Shown here one piece after another: positions 44,502-62,391 of a stretch of 64,000 bases of DNA. The notes beneath the pieces were generated by a model, which saw nothing but the letters and a program-made list of their open reading frames with translations, had not been told where the DNA came from and ran no database searches. Position numbers and translations under genes: made by a program. The stretch spans positions 62,001-126,000 of the forward strand of contig NC_014829.1 of NCBI RefSeq assembly GCF_000177235.2. The letters are read 5' to 3'. Source of the stretch: Evansella cellulosilytica DSM 2522 (lineage in GTDB: Bacteria > Bacillota > Bacilli > Bacillales > Salisediminibacteriaceae). Within the stretch, counting starts at the first letter, position 1, and the number at the start of each line of letters is the position of its first letter.

Positions 44502-44617
44502 TCCAGTGACGATAGCGGAGAGGTCACACCCGTTCCCATGCCGAACACGGTAGTTAAGCTCTCCAGCGCCGATGATAGTTGGGGGTTTCCCCCTGTGAAA
44601 GTAGGACGTTGCTGGGC
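44502..44617 (+). rRNA. 5S ribosomal RNA, operon 1
   Basis: About 116 nt; loop-A/B region AGAGGTCACACCCGTTCCCA and the terminal TCCAGTGAC / GTTGCTGGG pairing are present. No terminator follows; the tRNA cluster begins 8 nt later. Confidence 0.95.
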
Positions 44618-44625
44618 AGGTAAAT

Positions 44626-44701
44626 GGAGGATTAGCTCAGCTGGGAGAGCACCTGCCTTACAAGCAGGGGGTCGGCGGTTCGATCCCGTCATCCTCCACC
44701 A
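44626..44701 (+). tRNA. tRNA-Val (TAC)
   Basis: 76 nt, CCA encoded, anticodon loop CTTACAA. First of nine tRNAs in the order Val-Thr-Lys-Leu-Gly-Leu-Arg-Pro-Ala, as in B. subtilis trnJ. Confidence 0.96.
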
Positions 44702-44706
44702 TTTAT

Positions 44707-44782
<76 letters not shown>

Positions 44783-44800
44783 TATTCATTCCTTTTATAG

Positions 44801-44876
44801 GAGCCATTAGCTCAGTTGGTAGAGCATCTGACTTTTAATCAGAGGGTCGAAGGTTCGAGTCCTTCATGGCTCACCA
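44801..44876 (+). tRNA. tRNA-Lys (TTT)
   Basis: 76 nt, CCA encoded, anticodon loop CTTTTAA. Substrate of the lysS product encoded upstream. Confidence 0.96.
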
Positions 44877-44890
44877 TTTTAAAATTGTTT

Positions 44891-44975
44891 GCGGGTGTGG
44901 CGGAACTGGCAGACGCGCTAGACTTAGGATCTAGTGCCTTCGGGCGTGGGGGTTCGACTCCCTTCACCCGCACCA
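44891..44975 (+). tRNA. tRNA-Leu (TAG)
   Basis: 85 nt with a long variable arm, CCA encoded, anticodon loop CTTAGGA. Confidence 0.96.
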
Positions 44976-45023
44976 AACGATTTTAAAAAATATATAATTA
45001 GTCCGTTATTAACTTATTTATTT

Positions 45024-45098
45024 GCGGGAGTAGTTCAGTGGTAGAACACCACCTTGCCAAGGTGGGGGTCGCGAGTTCGAATCTCGTCTTCCGCTCCA
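45024..45098 (+). tRNA. tRNA-Gly (GCC)
   Basis: 75 nt, CCA encoded, anticodon loop TTGCCAA. Confidence 0.96.
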
Positions 45099-45123
45099 GT
45101 AATTTAAGTTTGTAATTCGTCTA

Positions 45124-45212
45124 GCCGGGGTGGTGGAATTGGCAGACACACAGGACTTAAAATCCTGCGGTAGGTGACTATCGTGCCGGTTCAAGTCCGG
45201 CCCTCGGCACCA
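45124..45212 (+). tRNA. tRNA-Leu (TAA)
   Basis: 89 nt with a long variable arm, CCA encoded, anticodon loop CTTAAAA. Confidence 0.96.
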
Positions 45213-45215
45213 TAA

Positions 45216-45292
45216 GCGCCCGTAGCTCAATTGGATAGAGCGTTTGACTACGGATCAAAAGGTTAGGGGTTCGACTCCTCTCGGGCGCGCCA
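45216..45292 (+). tRNA. tRNA-Arg (ACG)
   Basis: 77 nt, CCA encoded, anticodon loop CTACGGA; A34 should be deaminated to inosine. Only 3 nt after the preceding tRNA. Confidence 0.96.
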
Positions 45293-45356
45293 TAATAAAT
45301 TATACATGCACTAATCCCTTTATCTTTAGTATAGTGTTTGTAGATAGTTTAAATAA

Positions 45357-45433
45357 CGGGAAGTGGCTCAGCTTGGTAGAGCACCTGGTTTGGGACCAGG
45401 GGGTCGCAGGTTCAAATCCTGTCTTCCCGACCA
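45357..45433 (+). tRNA. tRNA-Pro (TGG)
   Basis: 77 nt, CCA encoded, anticodon loop TTTGGGA. Confidence 0.96.
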
Positions 45434-45440
45434 TCTTTTT

Positions 45441-45516
45441 GGGGCCTTAGCTCAGCTGGGAGAGCGCCTGCCTTGCACGCAGGAGGTCAGCGGTTCGATC
45501 CCGCTAGGCTCCACCA
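45441..45516 (+). tRNA. tRNA-Ala (TGC), cluster copy
   Basis: 76 nt, CCA encoded, identical to the spacer copy at 41242-41317. Last tRNA before the boxA of operon 2. Confidence 0.96.
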
Positions 45517-50482: not shown

Positions 50483-50551
50483 ACTTTATTAAGACGATCA
50501 TTTAATCAGATAATGTTATCTAGTTTTGAGAGGATAAACTCTCATAAAAAG

Positions 50552-50667
50552 TCCAGTGACGATAGCGGAGAGGTCACACCCGTTCCCATGCCGAACACGG
50601 TAGTTAAGCTCTCCAGCGCCGATGATAGTTGGGGGTTTCCCCCTGTGAAAGTAGGACGTTGCTGGGC
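50552..50667 (+). rRNA. 5S ribosomal RNA, operon 2
   Basis: Matches the first 5S copy through its length; followed directly by a terminator. Confidence 0.95.
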
Positions 50668-50671
50668 AGAT

Positions 50672-50703
50672 AAAGTCATTCTCAATAGAGAGTGGCTTTT
50701 TTT
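50672..50703 (+). terminator. Terminator of the rrn/tRNA unit
   Basis: AAAGTCATTCTC (50672-50683) / GAGAGTGGCTTT (50688-50699, two wobble pairs), 4-nt loop, then a run of seven T. It is the first clear terminator after P1/P2 about 11.5 kb upstream. Confidence 0.88.
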
Positions 50704-50794
50704 ATTTGTTTAGGATTTGGACTTTTGTGAACCGAAGGTAGGGTTTGATTTGATAAATGTAGTGAAATGAATGAGGAGTGTTCTTTTAGGGAGG

Positions 50795-51895
50795 AGCGCA
50801 ATGATGCGTGAAATAGTGGTGGAAATAGAATAAAGTGTTTTATACAAGTGCAATGGCGCAATGAAAAGTGGAAGGAACGGAATAAAGTGTATCATACGAG
50901 GCCAATGACACGCTAGAAAGAAGTGGGAATGAAATAAAGTGTGTCATAGAAGTGCAATGACACGTGAGAAAGTATGAGGAAAGGAATAAGGTGTATCATA
51001 CGAAGGCAATGATGCATAAGAAAGTGGGAGGAACGGAATAAAGTGTGTCATACGAAGGCAATGATACACGAGAAAGAAGTTGGACCGAGATAAAGTGTGT
51101 CATAGAAGTGCAATGAAACGTGAGAAAGTATGTGGAAACGAATAAAGTGTATCATACGAAGGCAATGACGCATATAAAAGTGGGAGGAACGGAATAAAGT
51201 GTATCATACGAGGCCAATGACACGCGAGAAAGTAGTGGGAATGAAATAAAGTGTGTCATACGAGAGTAATGAAACATGAAATCTTAAGAAAAACAAAATA
51301 AGGTGTATCATACGCAAGCAATGCTGCCCCAAAACCAAAACCACACTCAACGAAGGTCATCATAGGACGCCAATGCTACCCCAAAACCAAATCCCCACTG
51401 AACGAAGGTCATCATAGGAAGTCAATGCTGCCCCAAAAGCAAAATCGCATCCAACAAAGGTCATCATAAGCAAGCAATGCTCCCCCAAAACCAAACTCAC
51501 ACTCAACAAAGGTCACCATAAGCAAGCAATGCTACCCCAAAAGCAAAACCGCACCCAACAAAGGTCATCATAAAGCAAGCAATGCTCCCCCAAACCCAAC
51601 CCCGCACTCAACGAAGGTCATCATAGGAAGTCAATGCTCCCCCAAAACCAACCCCACACTCAACGAAGGTCATCATACGCAAGCAATACTACCCCAAAAC
51701 TAAACCACCACTCAACGAAGGTAATCATAAGCAAGCAATGCTGCCCCAAAAACAAAAGTTCACCTAACGAAGGTCATCATAGGAAGCCAATGCTGACCAA
51801 AAAACGAAAACTTACTAAACAAAGGTCACCATAAGCAAGCAATGCTCCCCAAAACCAAACCCGCATCCAACAAAGTTCTCATACCAGGAGCATTA
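50795..51895 (+). repeat. 52-bp tandem repeat array, about 21 units in two subfamilies
   Basis: The anchor CAATG (or a one-base variant) recurs at 50799, 50851, 50903, 50955, 51007, 51059, 51111, 51163, 51215, 51267, 51319, 51371, 51423, 51475, 51527, 51580, 51632, 51684, 51736, 51788 and 51840: every step is 52 bp except one of 53. The left half of each unit carries an AAGGTn(a/g)TCATA-type core. The right half is purine/G-rich in the first units (about 50850-51300) and C/A-rich in the later ones (51320-51890). A last, degenerate unit ends near 51895. No unit variability of the spacer kind and no cas gene, so not CRISPR. 52 is not a multiple of 3 and no family-like protein is encoded. The flanks 50704-50794 and 51896-52150 hold nothing else that I recognise. 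Confidence 0.93.
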
Positions 51896-52165
51896 CCATC
51901 TCAACCTCCAAGACTAATCCCCAACCAAATTCCGCAAACTCCAACAACTAAACATAATCATAGAAGCCCCCTACAACTAACCATAATATTACATGAATCT
52001 TTAATGATTTAGGAAATATAATGAGACAAGTTTATATAATAATAAATAAGGGTAAATAATAACGTTGATACATTCGTACTATTAATCTCAATCATACAGA
52101 AAAGTACGATGCTTATAAGAATTGCCCTTCTACAATAATAAAATATAAGATTGGGGGGCTCTATT

Positions 52166-52873
52166 GTGTTGGATATATTAGCAAATGATACATTTATTAT
52201 GACAGTTCGTTTAGTTTTAGCTGCCATTTTAGGTGGTTTAGTTGGGGTGGAAAGAGAGTATCACCAACATCCTGCAGGGTTTAGAACACATCTCCTAGTA
52301 AGTGTGGGGTCCTGTTTAATTATGTTACTCGCATTTTATGGATTCCAAACATATATGAGTGAGAACGAAAATTACATTAATTTCGATCCTTCACGTTTAG
52401 CAGCTTATGTAGTTAGTGGTATTGGTTTTTTAGGAGCTGGAACAATATTAGTTCAAGGGTATACAGTAAGAGGATTGACAACTGCTGCTTCAATTTGGGT
52501 TGTAGCAGGAATTGGTTTAACAGTAGGTGCAGGGCTTTATACGCCAGCAATTATTACAACGGTAATTGTTATTTTAAGCCTTTATTTATTAGGTAAAATA
52601 GACTTTAATTTTTTATCAAAAGCACAAAAAAATAATATATATATTACAGTGGACGAAAACAAAAGTACACTAACGAGTATCATCAGTGTATGTGAACAAT
52701 TAGATATACAGATTAAAGCAATTAGTTCAGAAAGGCAAGAAGGATATAAAGAGAGTAGCGTAATTGAGTATCGTTTATATGTGGCAACAGTGGAGGAAAA
52801 AACGTACTACGCTCTTGTTGAAGCACTTCAAAATTATGAATTCGTTCGTAAAATAAACATTGATGCCAAGTAG
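52166..52873 (+). CDS. MgtC/SapB-family membrane protein
   Basis: 235 aa: an N-terminal domain of about five membrane segments (residues about 10-150) with GGLVGVERE, FRTHLLVSVGSC, GIGFLGAGTI and GLTTAASIWVVAGIGL, all typical of the MgtC/SapB/YhiD family, and a soluble ACT-like C-terminal domain (about 155-235). The family is tied to magnesium and acid homeostasis, with the biochemical role unsettled. GGGGGG at 52153-52158 points to GTG 52166. Not found at this position in B. subtilis; it lies between the repeat array and ctsR. Confidence 0.88.
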   Translation: MLDILANDTFIMTVRLVLAAILGGLVGVEREYHQHPAGFRTHLLVSVGSCLIMLLAFYGFQTYMSENENYINFDPSRLAAYVVSGIGFLGAGTILVQGYTVRGLTTAASIWVVAGIGLTVGAGLYTPAIITTVIVILSLYLLGKIDFNFLSKAQKNNIYITVDENKSTLTSIISVCEQLDIQIKAISSERQEGYKESSVIEYRLYVATVEEKTYYALVEALQNYEFVRKINIDAK

Positions 52874-53137: not shown

Positions 53138-53602
53138 ATGCGGAACATATCAGATATTATTGAAGATTATTTAAAACAAATAATCGAACATAGTAAAAAT
53201 GAACTTATAGAGATTAAACGAAGTGAGTTAGCTGAAAGGTTTGAATGCGTGCCATCTCAAATTAATTATGTCATTAGTACTAGATTCACTATAGAAAAAG
53301 GTTATATGGTGGAAAGTAAAAGAGGTGGCGGTGGATATATCCGTATATCAAAAGTTAAGCTCAATGATAAAAATGAGTTAATTGATAAGCTAGTAGAAAT
53401 TACAGGCTCTCAAATATCTCAACATTCAGCTATCAGCATTATATCTCGATTGTATGAAGAAGAAGTTATCACAAAACGTGAAGCAAATCTAATGTTGAGT
53501 GTTATTGATCGGTCTATTATTAGCTTAACATTACCTCTACGTGATGAAATGAGGGCAAGGATTTTAAAAGCAATGATTTCAACCTTAAAGTATGAAGAAT
53601 AG
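53138..53602 (+). CDS. ctsR: Class III heat-shock repressor CtsR
   Basis: Winged-helix repressor of clpC, clpP, clpE and its own operon; heat or McsB releases it. 154 aa; the DNA-binding part (about residues 1-70) includes RFECVPSQINYVISTRFT and the glycine-rich wing SKRGGGGYIRI; a C-terminal dimer/tetramer domain follows. GGAGGGG before ATG 53138. Its own operator lies upstream. Confidence 0.97.
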   Translation: MRNISDIIEDYLKQIIEHSKNELIEIKRSELAERFECVPSQINYVISTRFTIEKGYMVESKRGGGGYIRISKVKLNDKNELIDKLVEITGSQISQHSAISIISRLYEEEVITKREANLMLSVIDRSIISLTLPLRDEMRARILKAMISTLKYEE

Positions 53603-61695: not shown

Positions 61696-62391
61696 ATGAA
61701 GAACTATCAAGTTGTCATACCTGCAGCAGGGCAAGGGAAAAGAATGAATGCAGGAAAAAACAAACAATTTTTATTAATAAATCAAATCCCCCTCCTCATT
61801 CACACATTGCGTGTGTTTGAGGAGGATCTTCTTTGTGATAAAATCATTTTAGTAGTAAACAAGGAAGAAATAGAACAAATGAAACGGCTAACTAGTCAAT
61901 ATGCAATTAAAAAGGTAGAAAAAATTGTTGTTGGTGGTAGTGAAAGACAAGAAAGTGTTTATGAAGGACTTAAAGCAGTGCAAGGGAATCCAATCGTGCT
62001 TGTACATGATGGAGCAAGACCATTTATAAAACAACCGATTATCGACGCCCTTGTTGATTCGGTCATGAAAAGGGGAGCGTCTATTGTAGCTACCCCCGTA
62101 AAAGATACAGTCAAGCAAGTTTCGAAAGAATATATTCACCATACCGTCGATCGTACAAGCTTGTGGGCTGCACAAACCCCCCAAGCTTTTCGTCATGAGC
62201 AAATATTAAGAGCCCATGAACACGCAGTAAAGGTAGGGTATACTGGTACTGATGATGCATCATTGTTAGAGCATAATGGGGAGAAAGTCTATATTGTTCC
62301 AGGAGATTATGAGAATATAAAAATAACAACACCTGAAGATTTAATATTTGGAGAAGCTATTATTAAAAGTCGGAAGGAAGGAAATAAATGA
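61696..62391 (+). CDS. ispD: 2-C-methyl-D-erythritol 4-phosphate cytidylyltransferase
   Basis: Third MEP-pathway step, CTP plus MEP to CDP-ME. 231 aa with [18 protein letters not shown] (9-26), [10 protein letters not shown] and the VKDTVKQV segment. ATG 61696 follows AAGGGAAGA. Its stop overlaps the ispF start by 4 nt (ATGA), so both enzymes are coupled; ispE is 60 kb upstream at the other end of the window. Confidence 0.96.

Follow-up and report, generated by a model that had tools for sequence, protein, structure and literature searches.

A 52-bp tandem dyad array downstream of an rRNA operon in Evansella cellulosilytica, a member of a dispersed family of non-coding DNA elements in the Bacillales

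The array and its neighbours

The window analyzed here is a stretch of 64,000 nucleotides (positions 62001 to 126000) of the single-contig genome of Evansella cellulosilytica (G000; 4,681,672 bp). An rRNA operon in the window ends in a 5S rRNA gene on the forward strand (window positions 50552 to 50667; Rfam RF00001), which is followed on the same strand by a terminator-like hairpin with a T tail (50672 to 50699), identified in a consensus scan. The scan of positions 50500 to 52200 returned two sites against 1.8 expected in shuffled sequences, and the hairpin lies directly 3' of the 5S gene, in the position expected of a terminator. A tandem array starts about 95 bp downstream of this hairpin, and its end is separated by a gap of about 270 bp from an mgtC-like gene outside the array (52169 to 52873, forward strand), which scores 169.7 bits against the NCBIfam MgtC/SapB model, below the curated cut-off of 214. 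The array had been placed between the last 5S gene and mgtC in an earlier reading of this DNA from its sequence only, and both neighbours were recovered where that reading put them.

The array contains 21 anchors, located at 50799 + 52n up to 51527 and at 51580 + 52n up to 51840. The anchor word CAATG is exact at 19 of these (51267 reads TAATG and 51684 reads CAATA), and 19 of the 20 steps between anchors measure 52 bp, the remaining step of 53 bp being the one from 51527 to 51580. These are the counts given in the sequence-only reading, which we confirm; the longest anchor chain comprises 21 anchors in the real sequence versus at most four in 300 letter shuffles. A tandem-repeat search had been proposed as a check, and Tandem Repeats Finder indeed reported two adjoining period-52 arrays, at 50809 to 51281 and 51307 to 51859, plus multiples of period 52.

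Part 1 of the array (approximately 50795 to 51307, forward strand) has ten anchors in 52-bp units with purine-rich spacers, and part 2 (approximately 51308 to 51880, forward strand) has eleven anchors with C/A-rich spacers and the single 53-bp step. A degraded final unit forms the tail (51881 to 51900, forward strand). In the dyad of the unit, a 9-bp centre is flanked by two arms of 9 bp each, the inner portions of which are TCAT and ATGA. The core of part 1, TCAT-N9-ATG(A), is absent only from the first units; part 2 has the same TCAT-N9-ATG core, but the next letter is a C, and this C replaces the final A of the core in part 2 of the arrays at rRNA operons in general. Paired dyads spaced 52 bp apart, with at most two mismatches, gave 33 matches in the window versus 0.83 expected from shuffles, and 32 of the 33 were located inside the array.

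No open reading frame of at least 80 amino acids overlaps the window array and 52 bp is not a multiple of three, and we therefore rejected a coding role; short frames of 50 to 148 amino acids are present in other arrays of the E. cellulosilytica genome. A search of Rfam with positions 50500 to 52200, at E-values up to 1, matched only the 5S gene and thus no known structured RNA in the array, and a BLAST comparison of the array with plasmid and phage sequences gave no match. It could be that such arrays are transcribed as RNA hairpins at the 3' ends of genes, where they would act as decoys, stabilisers or processing elements. In support of this, part 1 folds better than its shuffles on both strands (z-scores of -3.7 on the plus strand and -3.3 on the minus strand), but folding of part 2 is no better than that of shuffles (+1.75 and -0.17 on the two strands), and the array sits past the terminator-like site.

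Elsewhere in the window, a nine-gene tRNA cluster is located at 44626 to 45516, between two rRNA operons, and the 5S gene at 44502 to 44617 is followed by tRNAs, without an array. The open reading frame at 53138 to 53602, a putative ctsR, had no match in NCBIfam. In another genome (G102), an array near a contig end adjoins a gene with a start resembling that of this frame, and this location recalls the placement of the window array.

Arrays elsewhere in the genome and in other Bacillales

At least 21 arrays that share the core were identified in the E. cellulosilytica genome by DNA search, period scan and geometry searches, with seven located at rRNA operons and 14 elsewhere. The latter are found near 276, 300, 651, 656, 727, 1015, 1194, 2323, 2720, 3973, 4063, 4069, 4073 and 4124 kb. 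An array directly follows seven of the ten 5S genes. The 5S gene at genome coordinate 106617 has tRNA genes and another rRNA operon next to it, and no array was found within the 3.3 kb scanned at the 5S genes at 1111644 and 3624550. In several of the arrays at rRNA operons, the leader and the first units are nearly identical between operons, as would be expected of a neutral minisatellite that owes its uniform length to recent tandem duplication and gene conversion among rRNA operons. A 52-bp array without the TCAT core was also observed, at G000:C1:3977217-3978073 (L028), which consists of unrelated sequence of the CCATTGTAAGG type; the longest TCAT array that we observed is 1.3 kb away, and L028 has an equal pitch, although it belongs to a different family.

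Nineteen of the 21 arrays identified in this genome point in the direction of replication, the exceptions being those near 651 and 1194 kb, and the tally consists of 16 out of 16 in agreement, followed by three that agree and two that disagree, in a listing in which left-half arrays off the pattern do not appear. The replication directions build on an origin near position 0 and a terminus between 2.26 and 2.56 Mb, as inferred from the strands of the 5S genes. The co-orientation could stem from gene direction or from common descent. The first 12 core-bearing arrays studied in this genome, including the one in the window, are each located 3' of a same-direction gene or rRNA operon, three of them in convergent gaps where either direction fits, which is in line with RNA hairpins at gene ends. 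However, one of the two arrays that point against replication opposes both of its neighbouring genes, which is not what such hairpins would predict. Strict co-orientation with genes was rejected on the basis of this array and of the arrays in divergent gaps, as judged from crude longest-ORF gene calls.

The arrays are intergenic; in a set of 38 arrays from other genomes, two overlap a predicted short frame, and according to crude gene calls the 38 are located in 17 tandem, 10 convergent, 8 divergent and 3 undefined gaps; the eight in divergent gaps again argue against an RNA element at gene 3' ends. Counts of terminator-like sites beside the arrays, made with a finder of our own, showed no clear pattern, either for the 38 arrays (16 pointing in and 8 pointing away) or for 12 arrays of the E. 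cellulosilytica genome (one pointing in and one pointing away). As a separate observation, an array in G242 (L207:2774-3302) starts about 70 bp past a 6S RNA gene.

The sequence-only reading placed the array near the origin and next to an rRNA operon terminator. A singular feature of this neighbourhood is not supported, since 14 of the at least 21 arrays in its own genome do not directly follow a 5S gene, and none of the 20 fetched array loci of G242 and G033 has an rRNA gene within about 3 kb on either side. One of these 20 loci (L225) ends at a contig end beside the array, and some further G033 arrays, outside the 20, also lie at contig ends. A general association of the arrays with rRNA operons was thus rejected. 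We also rejected the idea that all arrays beside rRNA operons have a 52-bp pitch, since the pitch is 101 bp in E. clarkii (G003) and in G004, and 89 bp in G001; weaker period signals at 81, 82 or 89 bp were seen at other loci. The 101-bp arrays (L105, L111 and L101 of G003 and G004, 3' of 5S genes) have a GC-rich tandem unit with GAACCCGGT and GGCACC/GGTGCC palindromes, and the 89-bp tandem array (L129 of G001, 3' of a 5S gene) contains GAACCAGGTTC palindromes. Unit length in related strains had been named as the touchstone for selection on spacing, and at these loci it does vary; but the 101-bp and 89-bp arrays seem to be repeats of other types, and the dyad pair has no match in G003 or G004.

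To what extent the family extends beyond E. cellulosilytica was assessed with patterns of geometry. We scanned 299 genomes from the order with a loose pattern of two TCAT-N9-ATGA dyads with a free gap, using the reversed pattern as a control, and 17 of these genomes had at least 10 forward matches versus 0 to 4 control matches. The counts were 198 in E. cellulosilytica (controls 0 and 4), followed by 138, 129, 75, 69, 61 and fewer in the other sixteen genomes (controls 0 to 1). A stricter search, in which units of 36 to 66 bp were allowed and which covered 29 genomes picked by earlier matches, yielded a match in 25 of the 29; 15 of the seventeen genomes kept 5 to 135 matches, and two dropped to one match with one control match (G306) and to zero (G087). 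Nine genera of nine families contain a genome with at least five matches in this search. When 348 genomes of the class were surveyed, at least one match was found in 25 and more than 10 matches in three, namely E. cellulosilytica, G051 and G471. The latter, which belongs to another order, has 44 matches, and the units listed for it are 52 bp long. The control pattern was not always empty in this survey, as shown by G546 with 19 control matches versus one real match. Self-repeat periods of 52 bp or its double were seen in 22 of 25 loci around first matches, with no self-repeat period at the other three (L163, L166 and L180).

Within the genus, many matches were found in G000, G002 and G008, one to three in G001, G005 and G006, and none to the TCAT dyad pair in G003, G004 and G007, which indicates that the element is dispensable. 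A similarity search with the window array found nothing in 39 relatives, although G002 and G008 hold arrays of the family. Thus, the search of the whole genome and of related genomes that had been advised was rewarded at seven 5S genes and elsewhere in the same genome, but it detected no relatives by sequence. No description of a 52-bp dyad-array element was found in the open-licence literature, where some of the queries returned little. We conclude with high confidence that the window array is one member of a dispersed family of non-coding DNA elements in the Bacillales, which is defined by its geometry.

A distribution of this kind invites the explanation that the arrays are selfish or passively spreading intergenic repeats, comparable to REP or STAR elements, with no function for the host and with a unit length that is a by-product of copying. 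The arrays are dispersed, intergenic and present at many loci, with several sub-families per genome and a patchy occurrence among congeners, and arm words are common to the arrays of one genome, all of which would agree with such spread. Genes for the REP-associated Y1 transposase do not, however, track the arrays in 21 genomes: G249 has no Y1 gene but 51 array pairs, and G003, G004 and G007 have three to four Y1 genes and no array match. Mobilisation of the REP/RAYT type is thus not supported.

Pitch, dyad symmetry and helical phase

The length of the unit was examined in two sets of loci. At 24 loci obtained with the pattern that permits units of 36 to 66 bp, 82 of 100 steps of 20 to 80 bp between successive dyads were exactly 52 bp and 86 were 51 to 53 bp. 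In the 38 arrays, 191 steps comprised 153 of 52 bp, 33 of 51 bp, three of 53 bp and single steps of 50 and 49 bp. This second set derives from seven genomes and 36 of 40 fetched loci, with 46 to 57 bp allowed; L196, L202, L206 and L208 are without a three-dyad chain, four negative steps representing merged-chain artefacts were left out, and the 24-locus set shares two of these arrays. Many of the 33 steps of 51 bp fall in G102, and in the Litchfieldia arrays after 5S genes all but two of 50 steps measure 51 bp. We are highly confident that the pitch is conserved across the family.

The sequence of the unit is by comparison free. When array consensuses from different genera are compared outside the eight core letters, their identity is 0.36 versus 0.30 in position-shuffled sequences. 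Unconstrained divergence of the spacers should scatter their length by insertions and deletions, yet the length is fixed, and we infer from this that the pitch is under selection, with the fixed length despite free spacers as the main argument. Selection on spacing was one of the two explanations offered in the sequence-only reading, and it gains support from the pitch of 52 or 51 bp in other genera, where the sequence is nearly unrecognisable, and from the 10.4-bp oscillation at the level of the family that is described below.

The other explanation, homogenisation, also has a part, since units are alike within an array and copy number differs at orthologous loci. Five loci are common to G242 (12 compared) and G033 (8), both of one genus, with flanks that are 79-91% identical, and the numbers of units at these loci, as chained, are 4 versus 6, 5 versus 6, 4 versus 9, 4 versus 3 and 4 versus 11. 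In the G033 and G242 arrays (L206-L225) we further observed that the 9-bp dyad centre is near-uniform in each array and differs between arrays of one genome, and that arm words recur from array to array. Likeness of units and variable copy number are both what a neutral minisatellite would show. Such a minisatellite would, on the other hand, leave unexplained why the same pitch and core accompany a free sequence in many genera, why the arms are symmetric and why there is a helical phase; this reading is already strained by the cross-genus data, and we consider it quite improbable. The sharing of positions at the five orthologous loci also speaks against a selfish repeat.

The symmetry of the arms was studied in consensuses and in single units. 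Among 30 consensuses, pairing across the dyad was above that in shuffles at k=5 (16 versus 7.8) and k=8 (24 versus 12.3), with a less clear excess at k=6, 7 and 9 and none at k=10. Among 37 array consensuses from seven genomes, pairing at k=5 to 9 was 22, 26, 25, 31 and 23 versus 13.4, 15.9, 18.5, 14.6 and 12.7 expected, and k=10 was also above expectation (18 versus 10.6). Single genomes fell below the shuffles at some of these positions, as in G242 at k=5 (2 of 33 versus 9.3), G033 at k=5 (8 of 44 versus 14.2) and G249 at k=7 and k=9, and the evidence for symmetric arms is weak within the E. cellulosilytica genome alone.

For the analysis of single units, 50 units were aligned without gaps, out of 52 from which L174 and L200 had been dropped as duplicates. 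These contain 56 cells with two-sided changes versus 33.2 in shuffles, a value that none of 500 shuffles reached, and slid controls gave 6-28. In the outer arm cells, one-sided changes number 6 versus the 56 two-sided ones, and the covariation score for the outer five pairs was 0.404 versus 0.214 in shuffled units. The number of pair types was not above that in shuffles (15 versus 15.9) and pairs with two-sided changes were at the ceiling in real and shuffled units alike (5 versus 5.0), and relatedness may for these reasons inflate the other measures of covariation. Among the 250 outer arm cells, 97 are unpaired and 8 are G-U.

Symmetric changes in the arms could also be produced by selection on RNA hairpins, for which G-U pairs are informative. 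On the sense strand, G-U exceeds A-C in part 1 of most E. cellulosilytica arrays at rRNA operons and in the array near 727 kb. Outside this genome, however, G-U exceeds A-C in six arrays, with the reverse in three and a tie in eight (20 versus 15 when pooled), and few of the pairs in the family are G-U. The small numbers of G-U pairs and of one-sided changes, the 97 unpaired outer cells and the lack of a consistent excess on the sense strand point to DNA rather than to an RNA helix, and a transcribed hairpin would in addition leave the 52-bp pitch unexplained. We therefore consider an array of RNA hairpins to be improbable, and a structured transcript is the least supported among the options listed in the sequence-only reading, with part 2 showing no fold and G-U pairs being few. 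The symmetric variation of the arms fits a DNA dyad that is read by a putative dimer. The repair of imperfect palindromes in replication could yield part of the symmetric variation.

Another feature of the family is a base composition that oscillates with the turns of the helix. Measured from the dyad centre, AT content has minima at 0, about 11 and about 21 bp, and maxima at about 5.5, 16.5 and 26 bp. With the core masked, the share of AT/GC power in the fifth harmonic (10.4 bp) was 0.084 in 81 arrays versus 0.038 (sd 0.004) when permuted, and this harmonic was on average the strongest. In 24 locus groups from 20 genomes, the share was 0.106 versus 0.038 (sd 0.008), and the phase resultant reached 0.96, whereas the null did not exceed 0.52. 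In both of these analyses, L174/L218 and L167/L200 are counted twice and the E. cellulosilytica array L238 is represented by two chains. The spacer AT content was 0.73, 0.49 and 0.70 at 15-19, 20-22 and 23-26 bp from the dyad centre, and it was higher at 15-19 than at 20-22 bp in 20 of the 24 groups, and higher at 23-26 than at 20-22 bp in 23 of the 24. In four held-out Litchfieldia arrays with 51-bp units, the fifth harmonic was the strongest among periods above 4 bp, and in the held-out array of Bacillus sp. P14.5 it was the strongest of all. The 52-bp array L054:2140-3157 of this strain has a different dyad, TAATGGTACG ... CGTACCATTA, and 10.4 bp as its strongest harmonic.

The oscillation is clear for the family on average. 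With the core masked, the fifth harmonic ranks at the top in only 15 of the 81 arrays and 8 of the 24 groups, another harmonic being stronger in 66 and 16, respectively. In the window array it is not above chance, with masked shares of 0.040 for part 1 and 0.016 for part 2 versus 0.038, although the array has the expected phase relative to the dyad despite showing no excess power. The fifth harmonic ranks fifth out of 24 in the coreless 52-bp array of the same genome, and the 101-bp and 89-bp arrays of the congeners showed no 10.4-bp phasing. Spread alone would not predict an oscillation that is phased on the dyad, and we regard a selfish or passively spreading repeat as unlikely, though it is a serious contender.

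A putative docking array and its likeness to known systems

We tentatively favor the hypothesis that the arrays are DNA-level dyad arrays selected for their pitch, which serve for the docking of a protein or for the bending of DNA; on the patterns described above we come close to, but stop short of, calling this probable. Each unit of 52 bp corresponds to five helical turns and bears one dyad, and a putative protein dimer may dock on each dyad. The fixed pitch would place consecutive dimers on the same face of the helix, and phased bendability may then allow the DNA to curve or wrap, forming a nucleoprotein or topological element. We have moderate confidence in the mechanism with one dimer per dyad and in-phase bending, as suggested by the geometry. 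The location of arrays behind seven of the ten 5S genes of this genome, and behind other genes, is analogous to that of the BIME elements and of the gyrase sites downstream of rRNA operons in E. coli, and suggests that the arrays may function in chromosome topology.

A broader hypothesis is that the arrays represent a class of elements encoded by geometry, consisting of five-turn tandem dyads with helix-phased bendability, which would provide one-faced scaffolds for a putative wrapping protein at the ends of transcription units, including rRNA operons, throughout the Bacillales. We think it somewhat unlikely that this holds in full. If it is right, a widespread DNA element has been exposed, which similarity searches overlook because its sequence is free. 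The Bacillales would gain a counterpart to the BIME elements, the findings would point to a new nucleoid or topology protein, and the helical phasing of chromosomal DNA would become testable.

Among known systems, the arrays differ from CRISPR in that their spacers recur from unit to unit and are not unrelated and unique. The CIRCE operator, which is bound by HrcA, is a 9-9-9 inverted repeat with a fixed sequence that occurs singly at chaperone genes. The dyad of the 52-bp unit has the same 9-9-9 geometry, but unlike CIRCE the dyads are in tandem and the sequence of their arms is free. The CIRCE pattern TTAGCACTC-N9-GAGTGCTAA was not found in the window when up to three mismatches were allowed.

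The Bacillus stem-loop repeat families bcr1, Bhal-1 and Bhal-2 have sizes of 167, 74 and 76 bp, as described in the accessible text of the report (PMC2267715); these sizes set them apart from the 52-bp arrays, and the word "tandem" is absent from that text. The STAR elements of staphylococci are, according to the accessible part of their description, intergenic direct repeats of unknown function with tandem units of about 50 nucleotides, in which about 40-44 bp recur between the motifs (PMC3532100). Like STAR, the 52-bp arrays are intergenic and consist of tandem copies of a motif separated by recurring intervals of about 40 bp. They are unlike STAR in that its motif, in the same part of the description, is 14 bp long, GC-rich and without the TCAT dyad; the STAR motif T(G/A/T)TGTTG(G/T)GGCCC(C/A) was absent from the window when up to two mismatches were allowed.

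A further parallel is offered by the BIME and REP elements, with which the 52-bp arrays share a dispersed and extragenic location and palindromic units at regular spacing. According to the accessible part of one report, the orientation of successive BIME units alternates, and a group of IS200-like tyrosine transposases is linked to REPs (PMC2817692). The 52-bp arrays that were printed differ from BIME in that their units run head to tail and in that the pitch is fixed, and they differ from both REP and BIME in that the units are free in sequence outside TCAT/ATGA and in that the Y1 (RAYT) genes do not track the arrays. As stated in the accessible part of another report, BIME-2 elements and the regions downstream of rRNA operons are enriched in gyrase cleavage sites in E. 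coli, and a phased variation in G/C content with a 10-bp period is seen in the gyrase motif (PMC6379681). We consider the similarity between these BIME/gyrase sites and the 52-bp arrays to be a resemblance in role, and not one of kinship.
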